From: Snodgrassella communis
GTDB lineage: Bacteria; Pseudomonadota; Gammaproteobacteria; Burkholderiales; Neisseriaceae
Direction: 5' to 3'
DNA: 50,629 nucleotides
Assembly: GCF_914768045.1 (NCBI RefSeq)
Contig: NZ_CAJZCD010000011.1
Span: 1-50,629 of the forward strand
Shown here: one piece after another, positions 3,507 through 50,629 of the stretch
Layout: each line of letters begins with the position of its first letter
Position numbering within the stretch: the stretch's first letter is position 1
Made by a program: the position numbers and the translations under genes
The notes under the pieces: generated by a model
What the model was told of the DNA's origin: nothing
Seen by the model: only the letters and a program-made list of their open reading frames with translations
Databases searched by the model: none

Positions 3507-3575
3507 GAAGAGCTAATTGATGATTTAGACTGTTAAAGTTTACTTTGCCTCTATACTTTCTAGCGTGACTATATT

Positions 3576-3608: not shown

Positions 3609-3774
3609 AAATCAGTTTGATAAAAGATGAATTTTGTGTACCCCATTTATTATTCAGATGGGCGCTAAATTACATTAATATGCTGATTTGAGTTACTTGG
3701 ATAGGATGACTTCAGATTAAGTTAAATATACAAATGTAATTTTGAGAGTTGCTCTTGTCTGCTTAAATCTATAT

Positions 3775-4421: not shown

Positions 4422-4460
4422 AAAACAGGTAGATTAACTTCTGGCCAATCTACCTGTTTT
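4422..4460 (-). terminator. Terminator of the rpsB-lpxA block
   Basis: A 14 base-pair perfect stem (AAAACAGGTAGATT / AATCTACCTGTTTT) lies 12 bases after the lpxA stop, with A/T tracts on both sides. Reading on the minus strand it ends in TTTTATCTATA. Confidence 0.85.
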
Positions 4461-4472
4461 ATTTTGCTGGTT

Positions 4473-5249: not shown

Positions 5250-5350
5250 GTATATTTCCTACAGTCGTGGTTTAACGACTAGTTTAATCATATGTGATTA
5301 ATGTTTCAGGTGTGCACGATATGCACTTTATGTGTGGCTATGAGCAACCT

Positions 5351-5809: not shown

Positions 5810-5813
5810 TGCT

Positions 5814-6875
5814 TTAATCCTGTTGGTTTGATGAATTGCCGTTCAATTCGGCTAATTGGTGTTCTAATGCTTTTATTTTCTGACTCATTTCGTGTAAATG
5901 ACGAATATGCGCAGCATTTTTTACCCAGTCATTGTGTTTTTGTAATGGGAACATAGATGCATAATAGCCACTTTCCTTGATACTGTGACTAACAGCAGTA
6001 GCGGCGCCAATGGTTGTTTTTGGCGGTATATTTAAATGGCCACCAATCATGGCTGCACCACCAATAACGGTATAGTCTCCCACTTCTGTACTGCCAGCAA
6101 TGCCGGTACAGGCCACAATCGCCACATGGGCTCCGATTTTGCCGTTATGGCCAATCATTACTTGATTATCAATTTTGGCGCCTTTTTCAACAATCGTATT
6201 TTCAATGGCACCACGATCAATGGTGGTATTAGCACCGACTTCAACATCATCGCCCAAAACTACACAGCCGGTCTGAACAATTTTGAACCACTCGTTTTTC
6301 TGTTTATCCCAAGCAAACCCAAATCCATCGGCTCCAATGACACAACCAGAATGCAGTTCTACGCGATTACCTAGCTGACAGCCATGATAAATGGTTACGT
6401 TGGCATGAATAATGCAATCATTGCCTACTGTACAGTTTTCTTCAATCACTGTGCCGGCCAGAATACGTGTATTTTCACCAATGACACAGTGTTCTCCAAT
6501 AACAGCGTGAGCCCCAATTTCACAACTGGCTGCAATTTGTGCTGTTGGAGCAATGATTGCACTGGGATGGATAGCTGCTTTGGACTGAGGACGTGGATGA
6601 AACAAACGCGCAACGCGCGCAAAATAAAGATAAGGATCGTCGGTAACAATCAGGGAACGACCAGCTAAAGCTTCAGCAGATTTTTCAGTAACAATTAAGA
6701 TGCCAGCACGGCTGGCAATCGCCTCAGAACGCAAACGGGGATTACTCAGGAAGCTGATATCATGGGCTTGCGCCTGTTGCAATGAAGTTATGCTGGTGAT
6801 AGTGACATCATCACCACGCAGTTGTCCGCCCAGTTGTTCAACCAGCGCTGAGGCGGTTATCTGGTTCACAGTCAT
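5814..6875 (-). CDS. lpxD: UDP-3-O-(3-hydroxyacyl)glucosamine N-acyltransferase LpxD
   Basis: Third enzyme of lipid A synthesis; adds an N-linked hydroxyacyl chain to UDP-3-O-acyl-glucosamine. The 353-residue protein has an N-terminal uridine-binding domain ([12 protein letters not shown]), a hexapeptide-repeat beta-helix from about residue 105, and the catalytic H243 in [12 protein letters not shown]-terminal helix (about residues 325-347) is the ACP-recognition part. It sits between skp (9-base gap) and fabZ (4-base gap), the standard arrangement. Confidence 0.96.
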
Positions 6876-6884
6876 AATTCTGCC

Positions 6885-7385
6885 TTACTGTTTTTGTGCA
6901 TTTAATGCTTTGATAACTGCATCAGTGATGTCAAATTTGCTGTTAACAAATATGGCATCCTGAATGATGAGGTCATAGCCCTCTTTTCGTGCCATATCAA
7001 TGATGACTTTATTTGCATTTTGCTGGAGTGAGGCAAATTCTTCGTTGCGGCGCAGATTATAGTCTTCTGCCAGTTCAACTGCGGCATCTTTATATTGCTG
7101 ATCCATTTGCAGCATCAATTTGATTTTTGCTTCCCGTTCTGCCGCAGGGATTTTACCTGACTCAATTGCTTCTTTGAGTTTCATGCCTTCAGCTTGCATG
7201 GCTTGTAGTTTTTTCTGCCTTGGCGCAAATTCTTTATCTAGTTCTTTCTGGATGGACTGTGCCTGAACAGATTGCTGATAAACTCTGCTGGTATCAATAA
7301 AGCCAAGTTTTTGTATGCTCTCAGCCCATGCCAGAGTACAGGAAAGCAGGGTAGCAGCAAATGTTATGACTATTTTTTTAAGCAT
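6885..7385 (-). CDS. skp: Periplasmic chaperone Skp/OmpH
   Basis: Periplasmic trimeric chaperone that holds unfolded outer-membrane proteins on their way to BamA. The 166-residue protein has a signal peptide (MLKKIVITFAATLLSCTLAWA) and a Lys/Glu/Gln-rich coiled-coil region forming the tentacles (about residues 45-115). The C-terminal part includes VIIDMARKEGYDLI, the typical OmpH ending. It follows bamA by 24 bases. The substrate role is known for the family rather than shown here. Confidence 0.93.
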   Translation of the reverse strand: MLKKIVITFAATLLSCTLAWAESIQKLGFIDTSRVYQQSVQAQSIQKELDKEFAPRQKKLQAMQAEGMKLKEAIESGKIPAAEREAKIKLMLQMDQQYKDAAVELAEDYNLRRNEEFASLQQNANKVIIDMARKEGYDLIIQDAIFVNSKFDITDAVIKALNAQKQ

Positions 7386-7409
7386 GAATTTGTCCTTATC
7401 TAACTACGA

Positions 7410-17471: not shown

Positions 17472-18086
17472 ATGTCTACTCACACCGATAAACAACAATT
17501 ACGGCACCTGCTGCGCCAACGCAGGAAAGCATTAAGTAAAAAGACGCGTCGATTAGCTACAAAGAAAATCAACCGCCTCTTATATCCATTTATCCGTCGC
17601 CAGAAACGCATAGCTGTATACTGGGCTGTTGGTAGTGAATTATCTTTATGGTCATTAATAGTAACGGCTCAGAAACGCGGTGCACAGGTATATTTACCTT
17701 ATATTGAACCTAAAAAACGCCAGTTATGGTTTACACCCTGCCCTCGTTTGCCTCGCCATCATGCTACTGTTCGTTACCTGAATCTGCTTCAGCAGCATAC
17801 CGGCAAGCATAAAATACCGCAGTTTAATGGCCGAAAAATTCGGGCACGCTATTTGCATACTCTGCTGGTACCGTTACTTGGTATCGATCATCTGGGTAAT
17901 CGACTTGGGCAAGGAGGGGGTTATTATGATGCAACACTGGCAAAATCTTGTCAGCGTCAGCCTTTATTAGTAGGTGTTGGCTTTAGCTGTCAGCAAGTGA
18001 ATATAATCCAATCAGAAAATCATGATATTAATATACCCATATTTGTCAGTGAATATGGCTACCAATACTTGGGCGGAAAGCATTAA
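17472..18086 (+). CDS. 5-formyltetrahydrofolate cyclo-ligase
   Basis: Recycles 5-formyl-THF to 5,10-methenyl-THF with ATP in the cytoplasm. The 204-residue protein has an Arg/Lys-rich N-terminal helix region (LRHLLRQRRKALSKKTRR), the IAVYWAVGSELSLW segment, and the family signature NRLGQGGGYYDATLA that binds folate and ATP, followed by LLVGVGFSCQQ. It is divergent from rpsB. The N-terminus is unusually basic. Homologs are called ygfA or fau. Confidence 0.92.
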   Translation: MSTHTDKQQLRHLLRQRRKALSKKTRRLATKKINRLLYPFIRRQKRIAVYWAVGSELSLWSLIVTAQKRGAQVYLPYIEPKKRQLWFTPCPRLPRHHATVRYLNLLQQHTGKHKIPQFNGRKIRARYLHTLLVPLLGIDHLGNRLGQGGGYYDATLAKSCQRQPLLVGVGFSCQQVNIIQSENHDINIPIFVSEYGYQYLGGKH

Positions 18087-18293
18087 TAATATTCACCCAT
18101 CAACAAGTATTACAGCGAAATAGACTTATGTTTATATGTAATATAAATTTTCTGAATACTATTGAAGAATACTAATTTTTAAAATCACTATATGGCAATA
18201 AGGCTAGGAAATTTTATGCAAAATGTATCTGGTAAAAATAATGCACTAAAACTAGCTAAAATACTAAAATGAAGCACATTAAAGGTGACTAAG

Positions 18294-19275
18294 ATGGTCA
18301 AAAAATTGATATTTACAGTCACAATAAGTTTATTAGCAATATATCTATCAGGCGTAATTATAACTGAATCAATCAAGCCATTAGATATTGCCCAAAGCCT
18401 TAAAGTTAGGGCAATGGGGATTAGCCCCAATGTTCCTTTTTATAAAACAACCTGATACGAAGTTGGGCATATTTTTCAGCCGCTCCATAACTACCCTGAG
18501 TATGCTCCTATTACGCTTGAACAAGCTGAGAATGCTCCATATCGTCGAAATTCACCCACAACTGAAATCAAAATCACCACTGTAGGTGATAATTATCAGA
18601 TAAAAGAGCGTTGGAATTATCGGCGTAAACCGCAATATATTCTACTTAATGAAGAGCAGCTCGTTAGTTTAAAATCGATTGAAAATGGTAACCACTTTTT
18701 TTGTATTAGATGACAATTTACGCCTACAACCTGTCACTATAGAAGAAGCAATTATGTTGCCCAATTATATTAAAGTAGTCAAAGAAATGGGGAAAATTAT
18801 CTCCATAGAGAAAAAACCATTAGTATCAATATTTAAACAAGAATATCAATACCGGGCACTGAGTGGCGAAAGGCAATTTTTTAAGAAAATACATTATAGT
18901 ATTGATAAAAAGTCAATATTCAGTTCTCTATTTTCTGAATATAATGAAAATGGAAAAGTTTTATATTATATAACTAGAGATGCAAAAGATAATGTAATTA
19001 GTAAAGAAACAATTAGTCCCGAAGGAAGCAAATACTATTCTGAAACCACTTTATTTAATGCACAAGGTGAAAAAACAAATATTATTTATAATGCAATTAA
19101 TGGTAAAAATAAAAATGAACATCTTGATCAAAATGGTAATATCCTTGAAGTGACTTACGAAAATGACCAATTCATTGGTTCTCCTGATTTTGAGGAAGAT
19201 GAACGTTATCAAACTCTCAAGATTGATAGCAGTAAAAAGTACAATATAGTAGATAATTTAGATCCAGAAACATAA
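18294..19275 (+). pseudogene. Broken gene for an exported protein of unknown function
   Basis: An open frame starts at ATG 18294 (AAGG site upstream) with a signal or membrane segment (LIFTVTISLLAIYLSGVII). It stops at an in-frame TGA (18453-18455) after 53 codons, where flanking residues KTT/YEVGH suggest a lost Trp codon. The same frame then runs on to a run of seven Ts at 18696-18702. There it goes out of frame: ENGNHFF continues as VLDDNLRLQPVT only after a one-base shift. From there 190 more residues follow to the stop at 19275, with YNENGKVLYY...GNILEVTYEND units recalling YwqK/MORN-like repeats. The intact product would be about 327 residues. A PAAR gene follows, so it may have been part of a type VI secretion cargo cluster (inference). 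Confidence 0.75.
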
Positions 19276-19337
19276 GTCATTGTTAGTCTTCATTTGATTT
19301 TTAATTATAAGTTATAAACCTAAACAGGAATAAACCA

Positions 19338-19604
19338 ATAAAAGGCATAATAAGTTTAGGCGATTCAACCAACTACGGCGGTAAAGTGATATCTGCCTCA
19401 ACAAAGATTAGCGTGTTTAATAAAGGTGTAGCTGGTATTGGAGATAAGGTGCAATGCCTCGTTAAGAATCATGAGGTTAATCCTATCATTGATGGTGATT
19501 CCCAGTTTTCCGGTTACGGGAAACCGGCTGCCTTTCATGGGCACAAAACAGCATGTGATTGCGGATTAATATCCTCCTTATCTAATTTTGGTATAAACAG
19601 TTAA
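19338..19604 (+). pseudogene. PAAR-domain protein without a normal start codon
   Basis: The frame encodes 88 residues of a complete PAAR protein: KGIISLGDSTNYGGKVIS, then GVAGIGDKVQC, NPIIDGDSQF and PAAFHGHKTACDCGLISS. These are the hallmarks of the sharp tip placed on VgrG in type VI secretion systems; the Cys/His residues fit the zinc site. The codon where the start should be, seven bases after AGGA, is ATA (19338-19340), not ATG. The first possible start is GTG at 19386, which would cut off the first PAAR strand. It is therefore probably inactive or poorly translated. No other T6SS gene is in the window. Confidence 0.75.
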
Positions 19605-19607
19605 TAG

Positions 19608-19848
19608 CTATTGGTTTATGTTTATTACCTTAGCCTATCACATTTAAAAGGACTTTCCCTGCTATTTTGGGGCGTGGCTTTGTTGGTATTTGCAATTACT
19701 GGGTTAATTTCTGCCTTTTTTATACAGCTCACTACCTATATGACATGCAAAATATGTACGGATTGATGTTGCTGTATCAGGCATCAGTTGGTTTGTTGCA
19801 TTCTGTTTTAATCTACGCCAAGACAAAAGATTAAATACTGAGATATAG
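19608..19848 (+). pseudogene. Membrane-protein fragment
   Basis: Directly after the PAAR stop and in the same frame, 52 codons without a start encode a strongly hydrophobic stretch (LLFWGVALLVFAITGLISAF) up to a TGA at 19764. A one-base shift near 19740 gives a second hydrophobic piece (VAVSGISWFVAFCFNLRQDK) ending at 19848. It reads like the remains of a roughly 80-residue two-helix membrane protein. Such small proteins often accompany PAAR or effector genes, but its identity is not known. Confidence 0.45.
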
Positions 19849-19951
19849 CTATATTTGTACCGATCCCTCTAACCGTGTACAGCAAATAGTCTGGAAATGC
19901 CTAATTACATGCATAGAATTTGGACGCGAAAAAAAAGGAATAGCAATATAT

Positions 19952-19981
19952 ATAATACTAAACAATATTGTTTAGTATTAT
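19952..19981. repeat. 30-base perfect palindrome
   Basis: ATAATACTAAACAAT is followed at once by its exact reverse complement, with no loop. It lies between two gene remnants in the decayed island. It could be an old operator, a terminator stem or a recombination site; there is no T run. Confidence 0.6.
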
Positions 19982-19994
19982 GGTGAAAAATTAG

Positions 19995-20189
19995 ATACTG
20001 TTTATTTATGGTGACGACTATATAAAAGATAAAAGTGCCGCTTATTTCAAAGGCACTAACCCTGAAAGATTTAATGAAGTTTTTGATAATAAAGGATATG
20101 ATGATAAGTTTTATTATTTTGGCGCAACTGGCGATGCGCTTGATGTAAAAATATCATCATTAACAACAACAAAGATTGAACTTGATTAA
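19995..20189 (+). pseudogene. C-terminal remnant of a DKNYY-like protein
   Basis: A frame without a start codon encodes about 64 residues: IYGDDYIKDKSAAYFKG, then a DKFYYFGATGDALDV segment, ending IELD. The YxxDK..AYFKG pattern resembles DKNYY-repeat proteins, which often occur as immunity-type or cell-surface proteins. The N-terminal part is missing and a stop lies just upstream (19992-19994). It probably belonged with the PAAR cluster as immunity to a lost effector (inference). Confidence 0.45.
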
Positions 20190-20207
20190 GGATAACTTAA
20201 TCAAGTT
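20179..20207 (+). terminator. Hairpin at the end of the decayed island genes
   Basis: A 12-base-pair stem (AACTTGATTAAG / CTTAATCAAGTT) with a GATAA loop overlaps the stop of the DKNYY-like remnant. The downstream sequence is A-rich rather than T-rich on the plus strand. Confidence 0.5.
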
Positions 20208-20272
20208 AAAATCGGTTGATTGAATTTAGGCAAATCCTATCCTGCAGATAGTTAGACAGGATAGAAATGATC

Positions 20273-21275
20273 TTATTTACTGAAAAACACTTTGGCTGTT
20301 TTGCGAACTACTATCCAACCCATTACACATAAGACAAGAAAACATAATATAACATCAGTTATTCCAAAAGCTATCGTTCTCAATTGTGTAAAAGGTTCAT
20401 CGAGTCTTTCTACTAACTGCACTAAATATAAATTGATAACGGCAATAATTGCAACTAATGTAAACGTCAGAATAAAAGCAATGGCAGAGCTGAAAATCAA
20501 AGTTTTTACCCGCAATTTATCACTAACATCAGTAAATTGTTTACGTAAGGCAAAATAGCCAATCACTTTAGCAATAAGTAAAAAATCAAATTACAAGCTA
20601 TAATCTTAATATCGTGTTCCAATGGCACTGTTATTCCTGTAAAACCAGAAAAGAACAAGGCAATGGCTACAATGGTTAGATAATAGAAATTAAATAATAA
20701 GATAAATAACGATAAATGGACTTTTTGGCTATATTCTGGGGATAATATAGTTATAGATGGTTCTGTTATAAAAAAAAGAACGCAATAATTTTACCCCTAA
20801 ACAGATCAATATGATTATCCAGATATCACAAATCAGTCCAAATGTTTTTATATATAAGTAGCCAGAATCATAATAAAAATATCGCTCCGCTAGAATCAAT
20901 TCGAAAAAAGAATACCAAAATTCCACAAGCTGATGTTCGAATATCATTCGATAACTATTGATACCTATTGTTATCAAAAACATGATTAGGGTTATACAAA
21001 GCAGATTCTTGTTATTATCTATATAAATCAAATATTTGTTCAACACTATTGCTGAAATAATAAAAGTTAAAATCAGGTTTGCTAACTGTTTAAAAGTATT
21101 GGGCAAAACTATACGAGTAGTTAATGATACAAAAGAGCCAAGCGGAATATTAAACTTTGATTCTCCATAATTAAAATTTGTATTATCGATAAACAGTTCA
21201 CGCTCAACCAAAAAAGGTATCAAATAATCAATAAAACAGCACAAAAAAGAATGGTAATTAAAAAAAGTGTTTCAT
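20273..21275 (-). pseudogene. Multi-pass membrane protein gene broken by several frameshifts
   Basis: Two open pieces, at 20729-21244 and 20273-20566, and the DNA between and before them encode one continuous hydrophobic protein if single bases are corrected at homopolymers. A start ATG at 21275 with an AGGAAG site begins MKHFF, but runs into a run of seven Ts (21266-21260). Another shift is needed near 21225. A run of eight (20777-20770) breaks RSFF from ITEPSITILSPEYSQ, and a run of six (20585-20580) breaks NLIF from LLIAKVIGYFALRK. The restored product would be about 330 residues with at least seven membrane helices. I recognise no family. Its start faces away from the PAAR remnants. Confidence 0.7.
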
Positions 21276-21780
21276 GTATTTTTCTTCCTGAAATACTTTG
21301 GTGGTTGCTTATTTATGCAAACAATCAAGATTAATTTGGAACTTTACTGAAAACAAATTATTTTATTGAGCTAATGAATAATAATACTATATGTTATTGT
21401 GAATCTGATGCCTGAATATTTGATATATAGAAATCGGGAGTCTGATTTTTGAAACCTATTTTTAAGGGAATTTCACTTTTACATCTAGTATTGAGACTGG
21501 GCTATTCAGTTTATGGATTATTAAATTTATTCAATTTAATACTGCTATATCCTTCATTCAGGCAATCGTGTATTACTTGTTTTAATTAAAACTCTGTAAC
21601 AAAGTTTAGTTACCTTTTTATATTATGATTTGTTATATCAAAATCGCCAGACTGATACAATTTAAGATTATATGGAATCTATTCGGTTATATGCTCCATC
21701 AGCACCAAATTAATCATTTAAACATATAAGCACATCAATATTATTAGTTTTGCTACTGCTAATCACGCATGGCTTACATT
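21276..21780. other. AT-rich intergenic region, no gene seen
   Basis: About 500 bases with many stops in all frames. I see no RNA gene, clear promoter or recognisable gene remnant. It may be further decayed DNA of the adjoining island. Confidence 0.5.
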
Positions 21781-21817
21781 AAAATAGATTCTTTTAATAT
21801 TTAAAAGAATCTATTTT
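21781..21817 (-). terminator. Terminator of the nitroreductase gene
   Basis: A perfect 16-base-pair stem (AAAATAGATTCTTTTA / TAAAAGAATCTATTTT) with a five-base loop lies 18 bases after the stop at 21836. The outer stem supplies A and T tracts, so it could work in both directions. Confidence 0.8.
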
Positions 21818-21835
21818 ATAAGGTCAGAAAATAAT

Positions 21836-22480
21836 CTATATCCGGGTAAATATCTGTTCGTTCGGCAGGCGCGATTTCGGACGACTGGCATTGCTGTCAT
21901 TAGCCGCACGATAACCCAGACTGACAACCAGAATACTTTTTAATCCTTGTTGTTTTAATTCTAAAATATCATCCATTTTTTCATCATCAAACCCTTCGAT
22001 TGCTGTTGAATCGATACCAATGGCAGCAGCAGCGAATAATAGCTGTCCCAGTACGATATATAACTGTTTACTTTCCCATTCGAGCTGAGCTTGTGGCGTA
22101 GTGCTGTTTTTATTTACGAAGAAATGGCGACCTTTATCCATCATTTCCTTGATTTCGCCTTCTCCAAAACGGCCGTCTTTTTCCTCCTGAGCTAGCACTG
22201 TTTGTAAATGCTGTTCATCCAGCGGTGTTTTGGCACAAAATATCAGGGTATGAGAAGAATCGGCTACACGGGGATGATTCAATTCCATTATTGCCGGCAT
22301 GATTCTGGTTCGCGCCGCATCATTGTCTACTACAAAGAAATGCCATGGCTGCGAATTAACTGAAGAAGGACTATTTCTGATTACTTCGAATAATTGCACT
22401 AATTGCTCAGCCGGAATTTTCCGAGTTTTATCATAATGCTTGGTGGTATAACGCTGTCTGGAAATATCAGCAATGTTCAT
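21836..22480 (-). CDS. nfsB: Oxygen-insensitive NAD(P)H nitroreductase, NfsB type
   Basis: Flavoprotein (FMN) that reduces nitro compounds and quinones by two-electron steps in the cytoplasm. The 214-residue protein matches the E. coli NfsB pattern along its whole length: RYTTKHYDKTRKI, SPSSVNSQPWHFFVV at the FMN site, LIFCAKTPLD, DGRFGEGE, AAAAIGIDSTAIEGFD and the C-terminal RPKSRLP. It stands alone with its own terminator. The physiological substrate is not known. Confidence 0.9.
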   Translation of the reverse strand: MNIADISRQRYTTKHYDKTRKIPAEQLVQLFEVIRNSPSSVNSQPWHFFVVDNDAARTRIMPAIMELNHPRVADSSHTLIFCAKTPLDEQHLQTVLAQEEKDGRFGEGEIKEMMDKGRHFFVNKNSTTPQAQLEWESKQLYIVLGQLLFAAAAIGIDSTAIEGFDDEKMDDILELKQQGLKSILVVSLGYRAANDSNASRPKSRLPNEQIFTRI

Positions 22481-22805
22481 AATTGGATTCCTGTTATTAT
22501 CTGTAATCTTTATACAACAATTTAGTTGGTTGAGTTTATATAGGAAGAATATTTATGGCAGTTCGTGAGTATGGTTACTCGCGAAAATAAAGTTATGCCA
22601 CGGTGTATTTCCGGTATAAATTCAATAACCGTCAAGTTATATCTGATGATTATAGTATTGCATTTTAATAACTTTTTTTACCAGTATCTATTGTGTAAAA
22701 AAATATTGGCTTTAATTTTTTTTTGTTATCAGCGCTTGATATCAATTATTTGCATGATTGATAAGGCGTTCCAAACAAGGATACAGAAATCCGTGAGTAA
22801 TGAAT
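22481..22805. other. Intergenic region, no gene seen
   Basis: AT-rich stretch between the nitroreductase start and the NERD gene stop. Only a short inverted repeat (CGTGAGTA / TACTCGCG, 22565-22585) stands out. The plus-strand frame at 22565-22825 has no family resemblance and overlaps the NERD gene. Confidence 0.4.
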
Positions 22806-23738
22806 CTATTGCTGTTGCTGTTTGATTTTTTGCTGACATTGATAACAATAAGCTTTACCACCAAATATGTTTTTATGATTCCAGCAATAGTAGGCAGCGC
22901 TGGCCGTAATATGTTTATGACAGGAAATACAGAAGTAATGGCTGGCTGTTTTACTTGGATTTTCAGTCTGTATTTGTGATTCGGTAGCTGGCTGCTCAAT
23001 TTTTCTGGCTAAATGATTCAGGCCGAAATAGCCCAGCCAGTCATATTGTGCCGGTCGATGCTGCTGTACGAGCTGACGGGCAAATTTTTGCAGGCTGGCT
23101 CGCGATACGGTACGGATAAAACTGAATATACCTAGGTGTTTGCTTAACTGGTGCACTTTTGTTTTCAGCTGCTCATTTTTAATAACTCTGTCCAGCTCAG
23201 GCACAGAAATTTTAGGCCGCCGGATATAGGCCTCATTGGAAACCAGTATCAGACTGTGTATTGTTGGCTGTAACTGCCAGCCGAAACGGCTGGGCAGTTG
23301 AATCTGATTTGTCTGCAACAGTTTGTTCAGTATACTGATATGGCGCTGGTTCTGCTCCAGTGGCGAAGGTATACCCTGTCCTTTGCCTTTATACATACGC
23401 GAAAATTCGCCCTGTTCATTGATAATCAGACCGCCTGCAATTCTTTTGCTTTCACACACAAATATTTGTAGTTGGCGGTTAATCAATATATGGTCTATTT
23501 GTGCCACTTTGCTTTGATATTGCAACCTTAAATCGTGGATGATTACCCAGTCTGGGTGATTACCAAAATGAAATTGCAGCTGATAGGCTGATTCTGCTTC
23601 ACCTTTAATACCGGCACGAATTAAGCGTATTTTCTGCTCAATATTCTGCCGTACTTGCTGCGTTAAATCAGGCACCTGTAGTAACTGCTCCAGTACCTCT
23701 AAATCTTTTGTTTTGCTATCAACTTGTTTAATAATCAT
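22806..23738 (-). CDS. NERD-domain protein with C-terminal zinc-ribbon-like motif
   Basis: Contains a nuclease-related (NERD) domain at about residues 50-170. YQSKVAQIDHILINRQLQIF and VCESKRIAGG correspond to the conserved D...E.K core of the PD-(D/E)XK-like fold. The C-terminal 45 residues hold CISCHKH, YYCWNHKN and YCYQC, a probable zinc-binding ribbon. The function is unknown; family members are thought to process DNA or RNA. ATG at 23738 gives 310 residues; a TTG four codons upstream is possible. It is monocistronic. Confidence 0.8.
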   Translation of the reverse strand: MIIKQVDSKTKDLEVLEQLLQVPDLTQQVRQNIEQKIRLIRAGIKGEAESAYQLQFHFGNHPDWVIIHDLRLQYQSKVAQIDHILINRQLQIFVCESKRIAGGLIINEQGEFSRMYKGKGQGIPSPLEQNQRHISILNKLLQTNQIQLPSRFGWQLQPTIHSLILVSNEAYIRRPKISVPELDRVIKNEQLKTKVHQLSKHLGIFSFIRTVSRASLQKFARQLVQQHRPAQYDWLGYFGLNHLARKIEQPATESQIQTENPSKTASHYFCISCHKHITASAAYYCWNHKNIFGGKAYCYQCQQKIKQQQQ

Positions 23739-24002
23739 TTTTTCAGTCAATTTTATTAATTCGTCTTAAAAATTGTTCTGTTAGACCAGTCTGTTACTGT
23801 ATTTTTGGGTAAAAATTAATATGTGTATAATAAATATGGTACATTTATTATAGTCAATATCTGTAATTTGCAAAATCTGCCATTAAATCTGTGTTGTAGA
23901 GGCTGCGCCTGACCACCGATTTCTGCCTGTTTCAGGTATATCTGATCAGTAATCAGACTTGTCATTCATTATACGGAGGACAACGAATGTAGATAACAGG
24001 CG

Positions 24003-24030
24003 AAAAAAAACCGCTGTTATCAGCGGTTTT
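24003..24030 (-). terminator. Terminator of the tRNA-Leu gene
   Basis: Stem AACCGCTG / CAGCGGTT with an ATAA loop, followed on the minus strand by eight Ts. It begins nine bases past the CCA end of the tRNA. Confidence 0.9.
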
Positions 24031-24038
24031 CCAAAATC

Positions 24039-24123
24039 TGGTGCCCAGGGACGGACTCGAACCGTCACACCTTGCGGCGGGGGATTTTGAGTCCCCTGCG
24101 TCTACCAATTTCGCCACCTGGGC
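24039..24123 (-). tRNA. tRNA-Leu, anticodon CAA
   Basis: An 85-base gene including an encoded CCA. The acceptor stem is GCCCAGG / CCTGGGC with discriminator A, the D-arm is GGCGAAATTGGTAGACGC, and the anticodon loop CTCAAAA is closed by GGGGA / TCCCC. It has a long class II variable arm and a TTCGAGT T-loop. The anticodon CAA reads UUG. A promoter and a terminator flank it as a single-gene unit. Confidence 0.96.
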
Positions 24124-24139
24124 TAGCGAAGAAGTCGGC

Positions 24140-24167
24140 ATTATAACGGATTTTTCAAGGTTGTAAA
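24140..24167 (-). promoter_or_regulatory. Promoter of tRNA-Leu
   Basis: -35 TTTACA (24167-24162), a 16-base spacer, and a consensus -10 TATAAT (24145-24140). Transcription would start a few bases before the mature 5' end region. Confidence 0.75.
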
Positions 24168-24328
24168 GAACTTTTTTGCGATAAGAAAATTTTTTAATTA
24201 TTTTTGATTAAAATATTGATTTTATATTTGGATTTTTTTATATTTCACTTATTAACTTAGAATTAAAAATCTGTATCGTATTTTTATCTGAAGATTATAA
24301 GGTACAACTTTTGTATTATTAATAAACT

Positions 24329-24976
24329 ATGCTTAAAATCCAATTTTTTCTGGCTGTGATGATATCTGTGCTGATGCTGAGTTCATGCCAGCATCAGCCA
24401 GAGGCATCTACAGCACAGGCGGCAAGTACAGATGCTGTTGAGCCAAAACATTTCCGTTTTGAAGGCAGCGATGTACGAGATGCGGGTCTTGGTGGCAAAG
24501 ATTTTTCTTTGCTGGGTGCAAATCAGAAAACTGTGCATTTGCGTGATTTTCAGGGTAAGGTGGTGGTGCTGGTATTTGGCTATACTCATTGCCCTGATGT
24601 ATGCCCTACTAATCTGCTTACCTATGCAGATGCAATAAATCAACTAGGGGAAAAAGCGAAGCAGGTACAAGTATTATTTATTACTGTAGATCCCCAGCGC
24701 GATACGCCGGAAGTTATGAGTGCTTATGCTTCCGCATTTAATCCGGATTTTATTGGTTTAACAGTAGACAAACAGCACTTCGGGGAGCTTAATAATGTTA
24801 TTGATCAATATAAAATCGCTGTACATAAAGTAGCCGGCAGGAGCGCAGATGAATATTTAGTTGACCACAGCACAGGCACTTATTTGCTGGATAAACAGGG
24901 ACATACCGTGGTTTATGAACCACACAGTCAGACGGCTACTCAATTGACCCATGACATAAAACAATTGTTAGATTAA
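24329..24976 (+). CDS. Sco1/SenC/PrrC-family copper-binding lipoprotein
   Basis: Thioredoxin-fold membrane lipoprotein that delivers copper to the CuA site of cytochrome oxidase or acts in thiol redox control. The 215-residue protein has a lipoprotein signal with lipobox LSSC (Cys20). The copper motif is CPDVC (Cys88, Cys92), and the third ligand is His180 in LVDHSTGTYLLD. The ATG has no clear ribosome site. It is monocistronic, 99 bases before hisG. No oxidase genes are nearby, so the client is not known. Confidence 0.92.
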   Translation: MLKIQFFLAVMISVLMLSSCQHQPEASTAQAASTDAVEPKHFRFEGSDVRDAGLGGKDFSLLGANQKTVHLRDFQGKVVVLVFGYTHCPDVCPTNLLTYADAINQLGEKAKQVQVLFITVDPQRDTPEVMSAYASAFNPDFIGLTVDKQHFGELNNVIDQYKIAVHKVAGRSADEYLVDHSTGTYLLDKQGHTVVYEPHSQTATQLTHDIKQLLD

Positions 24977-25062
24977 AATTATCTAATTAATATTTTTATA
25001 TTTTGTGCAAATTTATTTTTACGCAATAATAAATTTATAGCTAAAAAATTTTGCTTTTCCAC

Positions 25063-25078
25063 TATACTGATAAAAATG
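25063..25078 (+). promoter_or_regulatory. Possible leaderless start of hisG
   Basis: A TATACT box at 25063-25068 ends seven bases before the hisG ATG (25076) and no Shine-Dalgarno lies in between. Transcription starting at the usual distance would begin at or next to the ATG. No clear -35 is visible. Confidence 0.35.
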
Positions 25079-25729
25079 ACAGCCCAACTAACTATAGCAT
25101 TATCCAAAGGTCGAATTTATGAAGAAACTTTGCCATTACTGGCAGCAGCGGGAATTACTGCGATCGAAGACCCGGTTCAGTCCCGTAAACTGATTATTAA
25201 TACTAATCATGAAAATATCCGTTTAATTATTGTCCGAGCTACAGATGTGCCTACATATGTGCAATATGGTGCGGCCGATTTTGGAATTGCAGGAAAAGAT
25301 GTTTTAATTGAACATGATGGAAACGGATTATATCAGCCTTTAGATTTAAATATTGCCCGATGCCGGATGATGGTGGCGGTACGCAAGGGTTTTGATTATG
25401 TGGCAGCTTCTCAGCCTGGGTGCCGTTTACGGGTAGCCAGTAAATACCCGAATATTGCAGCAGAGCATTTTGCCGGTAAAGGTGTGCATGTTGATTTGAT
25501 TAAACTGTATGGTTCGATGGAGCTGGCTCCACTGGTAGGATTGGCCGATGCAATCGTCGATCTGGTTTCTACCGGTAATACATTACAGGCAAATAATCTG
25601 CACGCGGTAGAACATGTGGTGGATATTTCCAGCCAGCTGGTGGTAAACAAGGCAGCTTTAAAGCTGAAATATGCAGCCATACAACCCATTATTGATGTTT
25701 TTGCTCATGCAAGAAATCAAGAAATTTAA
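25076..25729 (+). CDS. hisG: ATP phosphoribosyltransferase, short form
   Basis: First enzyme of histidine synthesis, joining ATP and PRPP. At 217 residues it is the short HisG type that lacks the C-terminal regulatory domain and needs HisZ as partner (known for the family; hisZ is not in the window). It shows the N-terminal [27 protein letters not shown] and the PRPP-binding loop [18 protein letters not shown]. It is followed 29 bases later by the LOTUS/NYN gene and then hisD. Confidence 0.96.
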
Positions 25730-25758
25730 ACTTTTTATATGTAATAGGAATTCTTAAG

Positions 25759-27249
25759 ATGACTACAGAAAATTCAGCCAAACTCGCGGTACTTATTGAT
25801 GCAGATAATACTTCTGCTACCACTGTTGAGTCTTTACTGGAAGAAATTGCGAAATATGGCATTGCCAGTGTTAAACGTATTTATGGTGATTGGAGCAGTG
25901 GTTTATCCAAATGGAAAGATGCGCTGCTACCACATGCAATTACGCCTGTTCAGCAGTTCGCCTATACAAAAGGAAAAAATGCTACTGACATGGCTATGGT
26001 CATTGATGCGATGGATTTATTGTATAGTAATACTTTTGATGGTTTCTGTATTGTCTCCAGCGACAGTGACTTTACCCGTCTGGCTTCTCGTATCCGCGAA
26101 AATGGTCTGACTGTTTATGGATTTGGACAGAAAAAAACACCAGAATCATTCCGCAAAGCTTGTGACAAATTTATTTATACTGAAAATCTGCTCAGCCATA
26201 CTGCGGTAGAAATTGGTGAAGACAAAATTCAGACACCCATTTTCCGTAATAAACGCAAAACACCGGCAGAACTGAAACAGGATACTGCGCTGATAAATCT
26301 GTTCCGGAATGCGGTGAAGGAACATGCTGATGATGAGGGCTGGACATCACTGGGAGTTGTTGGCCAATATATCAATAAGGTGAATTCTGATTTTGATGCG
26401 CGCAATTATGGCTATACCAAACTTTCCTATTTGATTAATGCCATCGATATTTTTGAAACTCAGATGCATGGTAATCATTTATGGCTGCGTCTGAAAAAAC
26501 GCAATAACAATCTTGCACCCAAAACAGAAAATAAGCTTTATGCACCGGTTAATGAACAGGCGGCTTTCCAGCAGCAGAACAATGATGCACCGCTGGTAAT
26601 TACCATTCCGGCTGTTAATACGGCAATGCCGACAGAAAAGGTTAGCGTAACTATTGAGCCGGAAGAGAAAAAGAAAGATAAAGAACCGGTACTGGTACAA
26701 ATTGAAACTCAGAGCTCGGAATTTACCAGCTATGATAAAACCCGGCAAGAACAAACCAAGCGCGGCCGTGGTCGCCCACGCAAAATTGTATTTGAGTCTG
26801 CTGTAACTCCGGCGGAAAAAAGCCGTGGTCGTGGTCGTCCGCCTAAATCTACTTTCAATACCCGTTCAACCAAGTCTGGCCGTTCTGGTAATGAAACTTC
26901 CAGCCGGCATTACTGGAATCGTCTGGTGCCACTGGTGCAGAAAGCTATTGAACGCACTTGTGATATCGAAGGCTGGGCAACAGTCAGCTCAGTTGCCCGT
27001 GAGCTGGTAACCGGCGATGGTGGCTTCAATGCCAGAGATTATGGCTTTGATAGTGCAAATAATGCGATTGCAGCCATCAGCAGTGAATGGGTAGACAGCC
27101 GCAAGGCTGGCCGTGGTTTGCGGGTGCGGGTAGTTAAACCTTACGATGTTGAAGTAGATGGTAATACTATTCCGGCACATGAATTAGCGGCCAAATCAAT
27201 AGCACCGGTTATTGATGACGATGATGATAATTTTGGTAACAATCTTTAA
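25759..27249 (+). CDS. NYN-domain ribonuclease-like protein with two LOTUS domains and AT-hooks
   Basis: A 496-residue protein. Residues 8-140 form a NYN (PIN-like) nuclease domain with the acidic site residues D14, D16, D77, D102 and D104 (AVLIDADNTS, KGKNATDMAMVIDAMD, IVSSDSDFTRLASRIRE). About 174-246 and 385-458 are two OST-HTH/LOTUS domains sharing a GW..(V)......N......F.ARDYG/NYG pattern. The linker has KRGRGRPRK (334-342) and SRGRGRPPK (355-363), which are AT-hook motifs. The C-terminus is acidic (DDDDDNFG). This combination suggests an RNA-cutting enzyme that binds G-rich RNA and perhaps AT-rich DNA. Its place between hisG and hisD may be chance co-transcription. The function in bacteria is not established. 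Confidence 0.88.
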   Translation: MTTENSAKLAVLIDADNTSATTVESLLEEIAKYGIASVKRIYGDWSSGLSKWKDALLPHAITPVQQFAYTKGKNATDMAMVIDAMDLLYSNTFDGFCIVSSDSDFTRLASRIRENGLTVYGFGQKKTPESFRKACDKFIYTENLLSHTAVEIGEDKIQTPIFRNKRKTPAELKQDTALINLFRNAVKEHADDEGWTSLGVVGQYINKVNSDFDARNYGYTKLSYLINAIDIFETQMHGNHLWLRLKKRNNNLAPKTENKLYAPVNEQAAFQQQNNDAPLVITIPAVNTAMPTEKVSVTIEPEEKKKDKEPVLVQIETQSSEFTSYDKTRQEQTKRGRGRPRKIVFESAVTPAEKSRGRGRPPKSTFNTRSTKSGRSGNETSSRHYWNRLVPLVQKAIERTCDIEGWATVSSVARELVTGDGGFNARDYGFDSANNAIAAISSEWVDSRKAGRGLRVRVVKPYDVEVDGNTIPAHELAAKSIAPVIDDDDDNFGNNL

Positions 27250-46569: not shown

Positions 46570-47757
46570 TTAGCGTAATGGTCTGGCCACTACTTCTGCC
46601 AGCAAAGCAGAATAGCTGGCCACCAGATCAGAATTATTCGGCAGGAAGCGGGCGATCTGCTGCCGCTGATCATACATATATTGAGCTGCGTTATAGGCAT
46701 GATTGCTCATCGCTGCAAGCAACTGTTTGGCACCTGCCTGCACATCATTGCCAGCATAATAATAACCCAGATCTGAAATCAGCTCGGCATTGTGAATCAG
46801 AGGATAACCCTGCCAGCACACTTCCAGATAAAAATAGTTAAGCGGATTTTCCCACTGATGAGAAATCACCGCATCAGTATTGGTAGCCAGAAATGTTGGC
46901 GTATCATAACGACCCAGAAATACCGACTTGTGATTCTTCACAATATCCAGCTGATTCATCAGCGCAATGAATTCCATCGATTTTTGCGCCATCGGCAAAG
47001 TATTGCAAACCTGCAGAATATTAATGGCTTCCGGTTCACTACGATACGCCATTTCAGCAATCAGAATCGGGTACAGACAGAACTTCACCACATCAATATT
47101 CGGTTCCATTATCGACAAGCGCCAGCCCTTGCACGAATCCGGCTGCTGCCATAAGCCCTCAAATGGCATGGCTGCGGTTTTCTGAAGCAGAAATACCGGA
47201 CTCCATACAAACGGTACCACACGTGCCTCATGGCGACGGAATACCTCAAAATACGCCCGACTGCAATTGGCAACCTGTGGAATCATCCAGATATCATCAT
47301 AACGCTGGTTAATGAACAGATTACCACCACCCATATCACGGGAAAACAAAACTGCTTCCATCATATGGATATATTCAAAACCACAGCAATAAGAAATCAG
47401 GCGTACGCCCCTGTCCTTAATGTAGGCCGTCTGCTCAGCATTAATCTGTCCACCAAGCTCAATTAACACATCAATCTGATCTTTAGCTTCAACAAAACTT
47501 TTAGTCGGCCATATCTCCAAATCCCATGGCAAACCTGATGTAATCGGCACATCAGTTGTATTTACCAGCACCACAGAGCTTACATTAGAGCAATTTTTCA
47601 GTGCATCAGCGAGAAAAACAGCATTCTGTTTTATACCATTATTCCACAACGTTTCTTTAGGGTGGCCCAAACCAATGGTAATCCCAATACGCAAACGTGC
47701 TGGCGTAACGTCCTGACTATGGCTGGAAACTAAATTCGGAGCATTAGATAAATTCAT
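46570..47757 (-). CDS. DUF2827 protein A, glycosyltransferase-like (third paralog)
   Basis: A 395-residue cytoplasmic-type protein without signal peptide, in the DUF2827 family. Shared blocks are RIGITIGLGHPKETLWNNG near residue 23, the middle segment IMEPNIDVVKFCLYPILIAE, and the C-terminal VISHQWENPLNYFYLEVCWQ followed by GYPLIHNAELISDLGYYY. The E-x-GYPLIHN arrangement resembles the donor-sugar loop of GT-B glycosyltransferases (inference). It has about 18 extra N-terminal residues compared with its paralogs. It follows paralog B after 76 bases. The function is not established. Confidence 0.8.
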   Translation of the reverse strand: MNLSNAPNLVSSHSQDVTPARLRIGITIGLGHPKETLWNNGIKQNAVFLADALKNCSNVSSVVLVNTTDVPITSGLPWDLEIWPTKSFVEAKDQIDVLIELGGQINAEQTAYIKDRGVRLISYCCGFEYIHMMEAVLFSRDMGGGNLFINQRYDDIWMIPQVANCSRAYFEVFRRHEARVVPFVWSPVFLLQKTAAMPFEGLWQQPDSCKGWRLSIMEPNIDVVKFCLYPILIAEMAYRSEPEAINILQVCNTLPMAQKSMEFIALMNQLDIVKNHKSVFLGRYDTPTFLATNTDAVISHQWENPLNYFYLEVCWQGYPLIHNAELISDLGYYYAGNDVQAGAKQLLAAMSNHAYNAAQYMYDQRQQIARFLPNNSDLVASYSALLAEVVARPLR

Positions 47758-47833
47758 AATTTCAATAGAAATGTTTTATTGCTGGCTGGTTTTATGTATA
47801 CATTATACTAAAGAGTAAGCACAATTAGCGTAT

Positions 47834-48964
47834 CTAGGCTTTAAACAACGATTCAAGTGCTTCAGTATAACTGCGGACGTTACATTCTGCTTCAGGATCT
47901 AGCGTAGCCAGAAAAATATTTGCCTGTTCACGGTAACTGGCAAGATTTTCATCATGCATTTTATATGCATCTGCTAATGACTGCCCACCTTCTTCACAGT
48001 CAAAATCATGATAGCGATATCCGCAATCACCAATCAAGTGTGAATTATGAATCAGCGGATAGCCACCATACAAAGCTTCATAATAAATATAATTCTGCGC
48101 ATTTTCCCATTGATGGCAAACAATCGCTTCACAATAACTGGATACAACCTGCCAGATTGGATAACGACCTTCAAACGAAGTTAAGCCATGCCGAATAATA
48201 TCCAAACTTTGAGCAAACAGATTGAAAGTATTCTGTTTTTTCAGATTCAACGTATTACAAACATAAATATGCTCAATAAAATCCGGATTCAGCCGATGCG
48301 CACTTTCACAGACCAGCATAGGCATATAACTGGTTTTCACCATACACATATTAGGTTCGAATATACCAATACGCCAGCGTTTGCGACCAGGCTGATATCC
48401 AAACTGTTCGCCCTCTGGTAATTTTTCACAGGCGCGATTCAGAATAACCGGGCTCCATAAATGAGGCATAATCCTTACCGGCGCACGAAATGTACTGGAG
48501 AAATATGGCATACAGGTTTTTTTGTATTCCGGTAGTGTCCAAACCTCATCATATGGCGCACCCGTAATCAGCAAAGCAGATGGTTTATCGAACAGCATAC
48601 GTTCAATATCAATCACATAATCATTACCTACCCGCATACTAACAACTTTACCACCTTTGGCCTTGAAATCTATCATCCATTCCTTGGCCAGCTGGGCACT
48701 CATTTCAATCATGACATCCAGCTCATTTATGGCACTGGCCATATCAATTACCGGCACCGGTGAATCCTGCAGAAAATTCATTGCATCCTGCATATCACCA
48801 TCGCCGGAGCCTGCTACCAGTACCACATTATCAACAATCGGTGATTTTTGTAATAACATCGCCAGAAACAGACAATTTTGGAAAATGCCGTTTTCCCACA
48901 GCGACTGTGCTCCTTTACGCACATAAATCGAAACACCTACACGAAGTGAAGACACAGACGACAT
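47834..48964 (-). CDS. DUF2827 protein B, glycosyltransferase-like (second paralog)
   Basis: A 376-residue DUF2827 member: LRVGVSIYVRKGAQSLWENG at the N-terminus, IFEPNMCMVKTSYMPMLVCE in the middle, and IVCHQWENAQNYIYYEALYG then GYPLIHNSHLIGDCGY at the C-terminus. It starts three bases after the stop of paralog C, so translational coupling is likely. No membrane helices. It shares the same three blocks as A and C but is divergent in between, suggesting separate acceptors or sugars (inference). Confidence 0.82.
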   Translation of the reverse strand: MSSVSSLRVGVSIYVRKGAQSLWENGIFQNCLFLAMLLQKSPIVDNVVLVAGSGDGDMQDAMNFLQDSPVPVIDMASAINELDVMIEMSAQLAKEWMIDFKAKGGKVVSMRVGNDYVIDIERMLFDKPSALLITGAPYDEVWTLPEYKKTCMPYFSSTFRAPVRIMPHLWSPVILNRACEKLPEGEQFGYQPGRKRWRIGIFEPNMCMVKTSYMPMLVCESAHRLNPDFIEHIYVCNTLNLKKQNTFNLFAQSLDIIRHGLTSFEGRYPIWQVVSSYCEAIVCHQWENAQNYIYYEALYGGYPLIHNSHLIGDCGYRYHDFDCEEGGQSLADAYKMHDENLASYREQANIFLATLDPEAECNVRSYTEALESLFKA

Positions 48965-48967
48965 GAA

Positions 48968-50113
48968 TTAACCTCTTAATAATTCTGGACGATCAGCACA
49001 CAGATTAGACAACAGTTGTGCATGGGCAGCGATATTAGCTTCAGCTAAAGGCGCAGTAGCTTTAAATAATGCCTGCGAGGCCTGACGCTGACTATCCAGA
49101 TTTTCCTCATGGTGCTGCCAGGCCAGAGTCAGTTGTCTGCCCGCTTCAGGTGCATCAAAATCCGGATAATAATAGCCAGCATCAAACTCTTTTAACCACG
49201 GCGAATTGTGAATCAGCGGATAATCACCATACAGCGCATCCAGATACAGATAATTCTGGTCATTACACCACTGATGTGATACCACAGCATTCGCATGCTG
49301 CGCCATAAATCCAGCTATATCATGGCGGCCATAAAAACAGGCTTTGTGCTCCTTAACCAGATTCAGCGAATTAGCCAGATACAGCATAGTCAGATGTTCT
49401 TTCATATGCAGCGTATTGAGCACATGCATCATACCTATTGACTGTGGCTGTTGGCGATAAGCCTCATCACAGGCCAGCATCGGAATGGATGAAGTTTTTA
49501 CAACGGAAATATTGGGCTCAAAAATGGCTACATTCAAAGGTGTTTTAACGCCATCATGCAAATTGCTGCGCCAGCCAAAATGGAAACCAAGCTCACCAAT
49601 TTCCTGTTTGCGTTTGGATACAAACATCGAATCCCACAGATATGGCGTAACATGTACCGGACAGCGATACATCGTACGCAGCATAGGAATATAAGCCTTA
49701 TCTTTTGGTAACAGCCATACCTCATCAGAACGGTCTACTGGCGGAAAATTGGTCGATTTTTCAAATATATTATATTCCACCAACCCTACATAAGGCTGGC
49801 CAACACAATAAAACACCACCTTTTTCCCGCGAGTCCGCTGTAAAGCCAGCCATTGTGGATTTAATGCGCCTGCCAGTTCAATAATGACATCGAAAGCATC
49901 GCCCGCCTCCTGCTCCGACATCAAACGCAAATCAAATAAATTTAAATCAACTTGTTCAGCCATACCCGGCTGCCCGCCCACATTAATCAAATCAACTGAT
50001 TTAACAAATGGGATAGCCTTCAGACTTTGAGCCAAAAATATAATATTCTGACTCATGCCATTTTCCCAGATATTCTGGTTAGCATGAGTGATAACAGAAA
50101 TACCGATGCGCAT
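48968..50113 (-). CDS. DUF2827 protein C, glycosyltransferase-like (first paralog)
   Basis: A 381-residue member starting MRIGISVITHANQNIWENG at ATG 50113. A longer frame to 50176 adds a hydrophobic segment but overlaps the terminator of the adhesin gene and is less likely. Shared blocks are IFEPNISVVKTSSIPMLACD and VVSHQWCNDQNYLYLDALYG then DYPLIHNSPWLKEFDAGYYY. It lies 97 bases downstream of the trimeric autotransporter on the same strand, the first of the three paralogs. Its block has C where A and B have E after W (HQWCN). Confidence 0.8.
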   Translation of the reverse strand: MRIGISVITHANQNIWENGMSQNIIFLAQSLKAIPFVKSVDLINVGGQPGMAEQVDLNLFDLRLMSEQEAGDAFDVIIELAGALNPQWLALQRTRGKKVVFYCVGQPYVGLVEYNIFEKSTNFPPVDRSDEVWLLPKDKAYIPMLRTMYRCPVHVTPYLWDSMFVSKRKQEIGELGFHFGWRSNLHDGVKTPLNVAIFEPNISVVKTSSIPMLACDEAYRQQPQSIGMMHVLNTLHMKEHLTMLYLANSLNLVKEHKACFYGRHDIAGFMAQHANAVVSHQWCNDQNYLYLDALYGDYPLIHNSPWLKEFDAGYYYPDFDAPEAGRQLTLAWQHHEENLDSQRQASQALFKATAPLAEANIAAHAQLLSNLCADRPELLRG

Positions 50114-50159
50114 ATTAATCCGTATTCTTAGTAATAATGCTATTACTGATAAACAAATA

Positions 50160-50196
50160 AGACTTCTGGACTTCACAGAAGGAAGACCAGAAGTCT
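50160..50196 (-). terminator. Hairpin between the autotransporter and DUF2827 genes
   Basis: A 10-base-pair stem (AGACTTCTGG / CCAGAAGTCT) with a 17-base loop, 14 bases after the adhesin stop. The sequence after it on the minus strand is TTATTTGTTTATC, moderately U-rich. Read-through into the DUF2827 genes seems possible. Confidence 0.6.
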
Positions 50197-50210
50197 ACTC
50201 AGCTATTTTT

Positions 50211-50629
50211 TTACCACTTAAAGCCGATTACCGAGTTAATAGCTGCTTCCTTACCAGTGGTGGAAACACCTGCACCCCATGTAATTTTGCCGTCTTTACT
50301 TGCGGCCTTATAGTTTATACCAACGGCACCATAGCTACGGTATGCACCCACACCGATACCTACAGTCTGTTCGCCAGCACCTACAGATGGCAGATAAGCA
50401 CCAGACAATGCCATGGCCATTGCCGTACCTGAATAGGCACGACGCTCAACATGGTGAATATTGTCATTTAACTGGTTAACATATTCATTTATTTTGCTAA
50501 CCTGATTATCCACACTCTTAAGCTGAGCCACATTCACAGCATCTGTGTCGTCAAAACCTGCCGCAACTCCGGTTATCTGACGGTATTCTTTTTTCGATGT
50601 ATCACCTACCGATACCGCGCCTTTCGTAC
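50211..50629 (-). CDS. Trimeric autotransporter adhesin (YadA-like), C-terminal part
   Basis: The gene runs off the right edge of the window; the last 138 residues are present. They include the stalk motif GAVSVGDTSKKEYRQITGVA and AAGFDDTDAVNVAQLK, then a heptad-like coiled coil (VSKINEYVNQLNDNIHHVER), and the YadA membrane anchor with four beta strands (MALSGAYLPSVGAGEQTVG, GVGAYRSYGAVGINYKA, ITWGAGVSTTGKEAAIN) ending in Trp. Three copies form one 12-stranded barrel in the outer membrane. The passenger head that would decide binding is outside the window. Confidence 0.92.
   Translation of the reverse strand, partial: TKGAVSVGDTSKKEYRQITGVAAGFDDTDAVNVAQLKSVDNQVSKINEYVNQLNDNIHHVERRAYSGTAMAMALSGAYLPSVGAGEQTVGIGVGAYRSYGAVGINYKAASKDGKITWGAGVSTTGKEAAINSVIGFKW

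Follow-up and report, generated by a model that had tools for sequence, protein, structure and literature searches.

Two unrelated enzyme families are known to modify type V adhesins in the cytoplasm: the HMW1C-like N-glycosyltransferases (NGT), which glycosylate such adhesins, trimeric ones included, and the BAHT heptosyltransferases (Aah, TibC), which attach O-linked sugars to an autotransporter before its export (both as outlined in PMC8151025). In Gram-positive bacteria, serine-rich-repeat adhesins undergo intracellular, multi-enzyme glycosylation of their Ser/Thr repeats. As presented in the sections of PMC6973325 on GtfA and GtfB, this is an O-linkage on Ser/Thr made by dedicated enzymes encoded with the adhesin, with several glycosyltransferases per locus. 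Here, we analyse a locus at the end of a 50,629-nucleotide stretch of Snodgrassella communis DNA (NZ_CAJZCD010000011.1; hereafter the window), which is the entire contig C11 of a 2.31-Mb draft genome (G000). Three tandem genes of the family DUF2827 (D1, D2 and D3) lie there behind the C-terminal end of a probable trimeric autotransporter adhesin (TAA), and the original prediction, made from the letters of the sequence, was that they could glycosylate this adhesin in the manner of HMW1C or TibC, or compete for different sugars. Glycosylation of a Kingella trimeric autotransporter was reportedly described by Rempe in 2015.

We consider it likely that the DUF2827 family consists of cytoplasmic O-glycosyltransferases dedicated to trimeric autotransporters with Ser/Thr-rich stalks. 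The adhesin-glycosylation idea is supported by the predicted GT-B fold of D2 and D3, by a TAA frame at 50 of 54 DUF2827 loci, and by the presence of a TAA in all seven DUF2827-bearing genomes of our order sample. Our results also go beyond it, since DUF2827 tracks one particular Ser/Thr-rich stalk, that of the SLST repeats.

The locus differs from the GtfA/GtfB systems in that DUF2827 has no sequence match to any named glycosyltransferase family, and in its candidate substrate, a Gram-negative trimeric autotransporter with a coiled-coil stalk. HMW1C reads N-x-S/T, whereas the DUF2827 case implies Ser/Thr stalk repeats. BAHT enzymes are metal-bound dodecamers, and their substrates are the beta-helix passengers of classical autotransporters, whereas those of DUF2827 would be trimeric coiled-coil stalks. 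Neither family matches DUF2827 in Pfam or NCBIfam: the analogy with HMW1C and TibC is one of proposed role and does not extend to sequence. With somewhat less confidence, we favour the view that DUF2827 is a new glycosyltransferase family which, together with the SLST-stalk adhesins, forms a third cytoplasmic glycosylation route for type V proteins beside NGT and BAHT. It would be the Gram-negative equivalent of the serine-rich-repeat systems, built from several enzymes and mobile on plasmids, and would coat a coiled-coil stalk and not a globular or beta-helical passenger.

The SLST signature itself has been published for BCAM2418, a TAA of Burkholderia cenocepacia, with a guess at O-linked glycosylation (PMC7142374, citing a 2011 paper); the portions of that article dealing with BCAM2418 name no glycosyltransferase and no neighbouring gene. 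Excerpts of three further papers (PMC7970998, PMC10224339, PMC6127331) name no such enzyme either. BCAM2418 is 2750 aa long (PMC7970998). In another B. cenocepacia strain we found an SLST-positive TAA frame of 2744 aa with four DUF2827 frames within 12 kb, which we infer to be the BCAM2418 locus. Within the accessible full-text literature, DUF2827 appeared in one paper, on a cysteine database (PMC12828279), and no paper found in our searches of the open-licence literature names it as an adhesin glycosyltransferase in its title or the opening of its abstract.

Association of DUF2827 with a Ser/Thr-rich stalk

The adhesins adjacent to DUF2827 genes have Ser/Thr-rich stalk repeats of 14 residues, i.e., two heptads, with the consensus SLSTGLSTTNSNVS in the alignment. 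The core of the repeat is Leu/Val: in the 20 repeats of A2, our profile of the SLST stalk repeats, Ser or Thr occupies 69% of the surface positions versus 14% of the core positions. The median Ser+Thr fraction was 0.401 in 55 TAA open reading frames (ORFs) linked to DUF2827 and 0.204 in 38 unlinked ones, and the motif [LV]S[TS] occurred 6.5 and 0.36 times per 100 aa, respectively, in an unblinded comparison for which the unlinked adhesins were chosen from listed hits. Both sets exclude ORFs shorter than 250 aa or with more than 20% X (no ORF came from 9 of the 63 linked and 5 of the 35 unlinked loci); the linked set duplicates two genomes (L040=L045, L087=L101) and includes truncated ORFs, and one G011 adhesin, partial in L051 and complete in L043, falls in both sets. 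Unlinked ORFs with at least two motifs per 100 aa all came from DUF2827-bearing genomes (G000, G005, G007, G011, G043, G316). Motif density in the linked TAAs was 4.0 per 100 aa in G286 and 7.2 in G316, and among the five unlinked TAAs of these two genomes four had fewer than 0.7 and one (G316) had 2.7. The TAA model, trained on linked loci, misses the adhesin of G015 (L039:91-6531, minus strand), which directly precedes a single DUF2827 gene, with a phosphoglucose isomerase gene there too; it consists largely of a different Ser/Thr-rich repeat, SSATAAG/SSATVAG heptads, with 39% Ser+Thr and 35% Ala. Taken together, these data point more specifically to stalks rich in Ser and Thr as the likely substrate.

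We searched 399 genomes of the order for DUF2827 and then with the SLST profile. DUF2827 exceeded the cut-off in seven genomes (G000, G043, G147, G286, G311, G316, G381), covering five families and six genera. The SLST profile matched the same seven and no others, although in G000, G147 and G311 only at E 1e-5 to 3e-5; of the seven, G043, G316 and G286 had contributed rows to the building of the profile, and G000, G147, G311 and G381 had not. The searches cap how many candidates are scored in each genome. The odds of an exact overlap are 1/C(399,7) = 3e-15, or 1/C(35,7) = 1.5e-7 among TAA carriers, figures that ignore shared ancestry and serve as a guide only. YadA_stalk (PF05662) was found in 33 of the 399 genomes, 28 of which had neither SLST nor DUF2827 over the cut-off. 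It was found in five of the seven DUF2827-positive genomes; the stalk model missed the other two (G147 and G311), yet an adhesin, with an anchor and a tail after it, sits immediately upstream of DUF2827 in both, so the family did not occur without a TAA in this sample. The anchor family PF03895 is a poor counter here, because it detects just one anchor in the genome of the window. At L099:12472-15057 (minus strand) and L100:3-2135, a YadA-like anchor is followed by a tail of about 45-60 aa that by eye is rich in Pro, Ser, Thr and Ala; the YadA_stalk search was blank in those genomes. One further genome (G342) gave a weak, partial DUF2827 match below the cut-off (18.9 bits) and no SLST match, and no DUF2827 ORF was seen in the 10 kb examined.

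Two other taxonomic ranges were sampled. Among 61 relatives, SLST was matched in nine, every one DUF2827-positive, and the genomes of the same genus without DUF2827 (G003, G004, G012) also lacked SLST. In 299 genomes of the phylum, DUF2827 was found in two, both of the order, and SLST in those two and in G660, a genome from outside the order. We rejected the latter as an adhesin: it is a chemoreceptor (MCPsignal 3e-41) and thus a false positive.

Genomic linkage of DUF2827 genes and adhesins

A query with D2 over GTDB genomes, which recovers only close relatives of D2 and hence under-samples distant DUF2827 genes, returned 54 loci, from genera that include Snodgrassella, Paraburkholderia, Caballeronia, Variovorax, Cupriavidus, Burkholderia, Ramlibacter, Dechloromonas and Ottowia. 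Same-strand TAA frames preceded the DUF2827 genes in 31 loci and followed them in 11; in a further seven the frame was divergent and in one convergent. With positions and orientations this varied, the linkage is more than the inheritance of a single operon. D3 and D2 were nearly always adjacent, and D1 varied more in place and presence.

Cassettes were also found on plasmids. A plasmid collection contained 18 records with DUF2827, of which we examined six. Five had full-length DUF2827, each with an SLST-positive TAA frame; in the remaining one DUF2827 was truncated and there was no SLST-positive TAA frame. The plasmids with cassettes came from B. glumae and B. ambifaria, three being typed as conjugative and one as mobilizable; the fifth cassette was located on a B. 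cenocepacia replicon of 3.2 Mb that lacks annotation.

Predicted fold and sequence family

The structural models of D2 and D3 are predicted to be complete GT-B enzymes, GT4-like, over their entire length, with two Rossmann-like halves and a C-terminal helix crossing back; a GT-B donor site had been suspected from the conserved C-terminal block. D1 is linked to them through its 34% identity to D2. The structural matches of the models include SdgB, which according to the entry titles was solved with an O-glycosylated Ser-Asp peptide. Identity to the GT4-like GT-B enzymes BshA, TarM and SdgB is 9-12%. The invariant residues H284, N291, Y292, L304, H306 and N307 cluster in the segment equivalent to the donor site, plus K210 (D2 numbering). 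With about 380 aa, DUF2827 leaves no space for an added domain.

The GT-B assignment rests on structure prediction. By sequence, the PDB profile search returned a single chance-level row (E 0.74), and a Pfam and NCBIfam scan of 61 DUF2827 members up to E 10 returned only isolated hits, each to one member, with best E values of 0.021 and 0.0023, respectively. The Pfam matches of these members included neither Glyco_transf_41 nor HMW1C_N, nor DUF1975, the domain with which GtfA/GtfB bind acceptor and partner (a name not verified in our Pfam copy), and the BAHT family was absent from their Pfam and NCBIfam matches. PF13844 had no match in the genome of the window; a search of seven genomes with HMW1C_N had none either, but its controls were silent too and it is therefore uninformative. 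PADLOC found nothing. In a quick tree, the D1, D2 and D3 clades each contain Neisseriaceae and Burkholderiaceae rows, which indicates that the three paralogs predate their spread.

Conflicting observations and alternative explanations

Several observations weigh against the proposed role. Four of the 54 loci have no TAA frame (L049, L050, L078, L098), of which L049 and L050 are from two Snodgrassella-group genomes with D3-D2 only. The SLST cut-off was reached at 39 of the 54 loci only, and locally by a TAA frame in three of the ten Snodgrassella-group loci that have one; the loci below it include several short adhesin pieces and also whole Snodgrassella stalks. The linked Snodgrassella adhesins of more than 1900 aa, with 21-29% Ser/Thr, are at the weak end and overlap some adhesins from DUF2827-free genomes (up to 24%). 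Among the 13 DUF2827-positive relatives, four have no SLST match (G001, G002, G006, G015). The remaining points concern the enzyme and its expression. EX7E is the GT4 signature in the donor half. By the CAZy GT4 test DUF2827 has N-x7-[E/D] in its stead, with Asn at the first position in 59 of 61 aligned members and Glu or Asp at the second in all 61 (the position was set by eye from an EALxxGxP-like segment), which leaves room for a difference in activity or in the donor site. Finally, a conserved stem-loop lies before D3 (see below), and a single transcript for adhesin and DUF2827 is hence not assured.

We give a small chance to the possibility that DUF2827 proteins lack catalytic activity, or serve chiefly as chaperones without catalysis, which would bind the SLST repeats and prevent their folding before export. 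Such a role might be drawn from the passages of PMC6973325 describing GtfB as a chaperone-like partner of its acceptor. The altered GT4 motif would suit this, and the close co-occurrence fits any stalk-specific factor. A pure chaperone would however have no need of the invariant residues in the donor-site segment, and the three paralogs are usually retained together.

It is less probable still that DUF2827 makes another surface glycan (lipopolysaccharide (LPS), capsule or exopolysaccharide) and is simply carried along with adhesins on islands of surface-structure genes. Enzymes of the GT4-like type can use LPS as a substrate, and WaaG is among the structural matches of D3; cassettes can reside on conjugative plasmids; an LpxC gene lies between the two adhesin parts on contig C16 of the same genome and an LpxA-type acyltransferase gene 41 kb off in the window, although both are housekeeping genes. 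However, the four annotated plasmid loci have no annotation for LPS or capsule synthesis (several neighbours are hypothetical), and the presence of DUF2827 follows SLST stalks and not TAAs generally. Even in G043, which has no TAA in 31 kb around its DUF2827 triad, the triad coincides with SLST adhesins elsewhere in the genome.

That DUF2827 proteins are HMW1C-like N-glycosyltransferases acting on the Asn of N-x-S/T in the stalk is very unlikely, for although such enzymes modify trimeric autotransporters (as summarised in PMC8151025) and the repeat TTNSN includes Asn, the median sequon density is no higher in linked than in unlinked TAAs (1.5 vs 1.9 per 100 aa), the Ser/Thr-rich adhesin of G015 has only six sequons in 2146 aa, which favours O-linkage, and no GT41 or HMW1C sequence match was obtained.

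Proposed mode of action

As dedicated O-glycosyltransferases, DUF2827 proteins would act on TAAs having a coiled-coil stalk of two-heptad Ser/Thr-rich repeats (the consensus above and its relatives); their fold would be GT-B of the GT4-like type, and their donor most probably a nucleotide-sugar. The paralogs may work in turn or at different sites, e.g., one of them putting the first sugar on exposed Ser/Thr and the others extending it or priming elsewhere. A division into priming and extension is suggested by the existence of three paralogs, with a near-constant D3-D2 pair and a variable D1. Glycosylation would precede export of the adhesin via Sec and its outer-membrane anchor, and would turn a charge-poor coiled coil into a sugar-coated, soluble and protease-resistant fibre.

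A family without established function thereby gains a specific, testable role, with both the enzyme and the acceptor motif named. If this is correct, bee-gut symbionts and soil, plant-associated and opportunistic Burkholderiales use enzymes of their own to produce their Ser/Thr-rich trimeric adhesins as glycoproteins. It would also account for the unusual SLST coiled coil, on whose surface Ser, Thr, Asn and Gly predominate, and would offer a compact O-glycosylation tool for a short repeat.

The locus in the window

Table 1. Features of the DUF2827 locus, in positions of the window.
Feature	Position	Strand	Basis
D1: DUF2827 paralog, predicted GT-B glycosyltransferase, 395 aa	46570..47757	-	PF10933 6.9e-138, 459.9 bits; own clade in tree
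D2: DUF2827 paralog, predicted GT-B glycosyltransferase, 376 aa	47834..48964	-	PF10933 480.4 bits
D3: DUF2827 paralog, predicted GT-B glycosyltransferase, 381 aa	48968..50113	-	PF10933 375.8 bits
Stem-loop between adhesin stop and D3 start	50160..50196	-	10-pair outer stem
Probable trimeric autotransporter adhesin, C-terminal stalk and membrane anchor	50211..50627	-	PF05662 (YadA_stalk) 4e-11; PF03895 below cut-off; purD synteny

The arrangement read from the sequence, three tandem DUF2827 paralogs behind an adhesin C-terminus, was borne out (Table 1). All three match PF10933 in full (profile 1-362 of 362; family cut-off 25 bits) and are 33.7-34.9% identical to one another. The gaps from adhesin to D3, D2 and D1 (97, 3 and 76 bases) are exact if D3 begins at the ATG at 50113 and not at the upstream GTG at 50176 of the ORF list. 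The sequence blocks said to be common to the three proteins are less uniform than proposed: EPN occurs in all of them, but WENG of D2 and D3 is WNNG in D1, RIGI is RVGV in D2, and GYPLIHN of D1 and D2 is DYPLIHN in D3. The genome search found no fourth DUF2827 gene. The named relatives nearest to these genes are from Snodgrassella, and among 13 other genomes of the genus eight have three DUF2827 genes, two have two and three have none; with eight such genomes the triad is not a chance arrangement. The flanking genes are housekeeping ones (2-hydroxyacid dehydrogenase, FKBP, MnmE).

The adhesin piece runs off the contig end. Its anchor match to PF03895 (YadA_anchor; 19.3 bits, E 0.0012) is under the cut-off of 22.7, and its NCBIfam matches, to the C-termini of BimA, EmaA and YadA, are all below their own cut-offs. 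Complete adhesins occupy the same place in relatives: the one-contig genomes G005 and G007 have purD (verified by Pfam in G005), an adhesin of 3592 or 3677 aa, and then D3, D2 and D1. By purD synteny, we assigned the N-terminal part of the window adhesin (2695 aa) to G000:C16:18832-26916, downstream of purD. Contig C16 carries two large divergent adhesin genes, at 1-8085 (minus strand) and 18832-26916 (plus strand), which run off its opposite ends. Both finish in one peptide, with which the C-terminal pieces on C11 (50211-50627) and C17 (3-428) start. The assembly is thus broken at the window adhesin by repeats shared by two adhesins, and there is a hint of exchange between them.

The 97-nucleotide gap before D3 has a folding energy of -28.3 kcal/mol (z -4.33), equalled by none of 200 shuffles. 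Read by eye, both arms of the stem are retained in eight aligned Snodgrassella gaps, the differences being a few wobble changes and, in L048, one change that affects both sides. The stem-loop is possibly an attenuator or a weak terminator, and we infer that it could hold expression of the enzymes below that of the adhesin. Over the region, a terminator pattern scan found four instances versus 3.2 expected, near chance, and a promoter scan gave a result near shuffle level.

Observations on individual cassettes

The conjugative plasmids of L140, L141 and L143 encode a YadA-like adhesin and DUF2827 with OmpA, DUF4019 or unnamed small proteins nearby, and the B. ambifaria plasmids additionally encode TPR proteins near the cassette. 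TPR proteins of 575-622 aa lie by cassettes at L101:2406-4274, L141:13408-15210, L143:15154-16989 and L143:17071-18798, with the TPR in the N-terminal half; for the remaining 300-370 or so residues at the C-terminal end, Pfam gave no match at E 0.01. No glycosyltransferase domain could be recognised in those next to Burkholderia and Paraburkholderia cassettes; the TPR proteins are possibly further enzymes of the cassette.

Some loci appear rearranged or degraded. At L098:5332-8836 the DUF2827 genes are fragmented, with only a 73-aa adhesin-like scrap nearby, and at L145:9959-11739 a truncated DUF2827 gene lies near insertion sequences in a stretch that has no adhesin, as if enzyme and adhesin were decaying together. 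In Caballeronia concitans (L062:11163-11951) the start of D1 passes directly into SLST repeats, which looks like a fusion of the two genes by a deletion. In G011, a 915-aa ORF without a Pfam match (L043:16645-19392, plus strand) immediately precedes the DUF2827 triad at the usual place of the adhesin, and two adhesins are encoded farther upstream. Elsewhere in the window, positions 17500-23000 are AT-rich (29-37% GC vs about 45% to the left) with few long ORFs and with genes for a nitroreductase and a NERD-domain protein, and this stretch may be a recent insertion.

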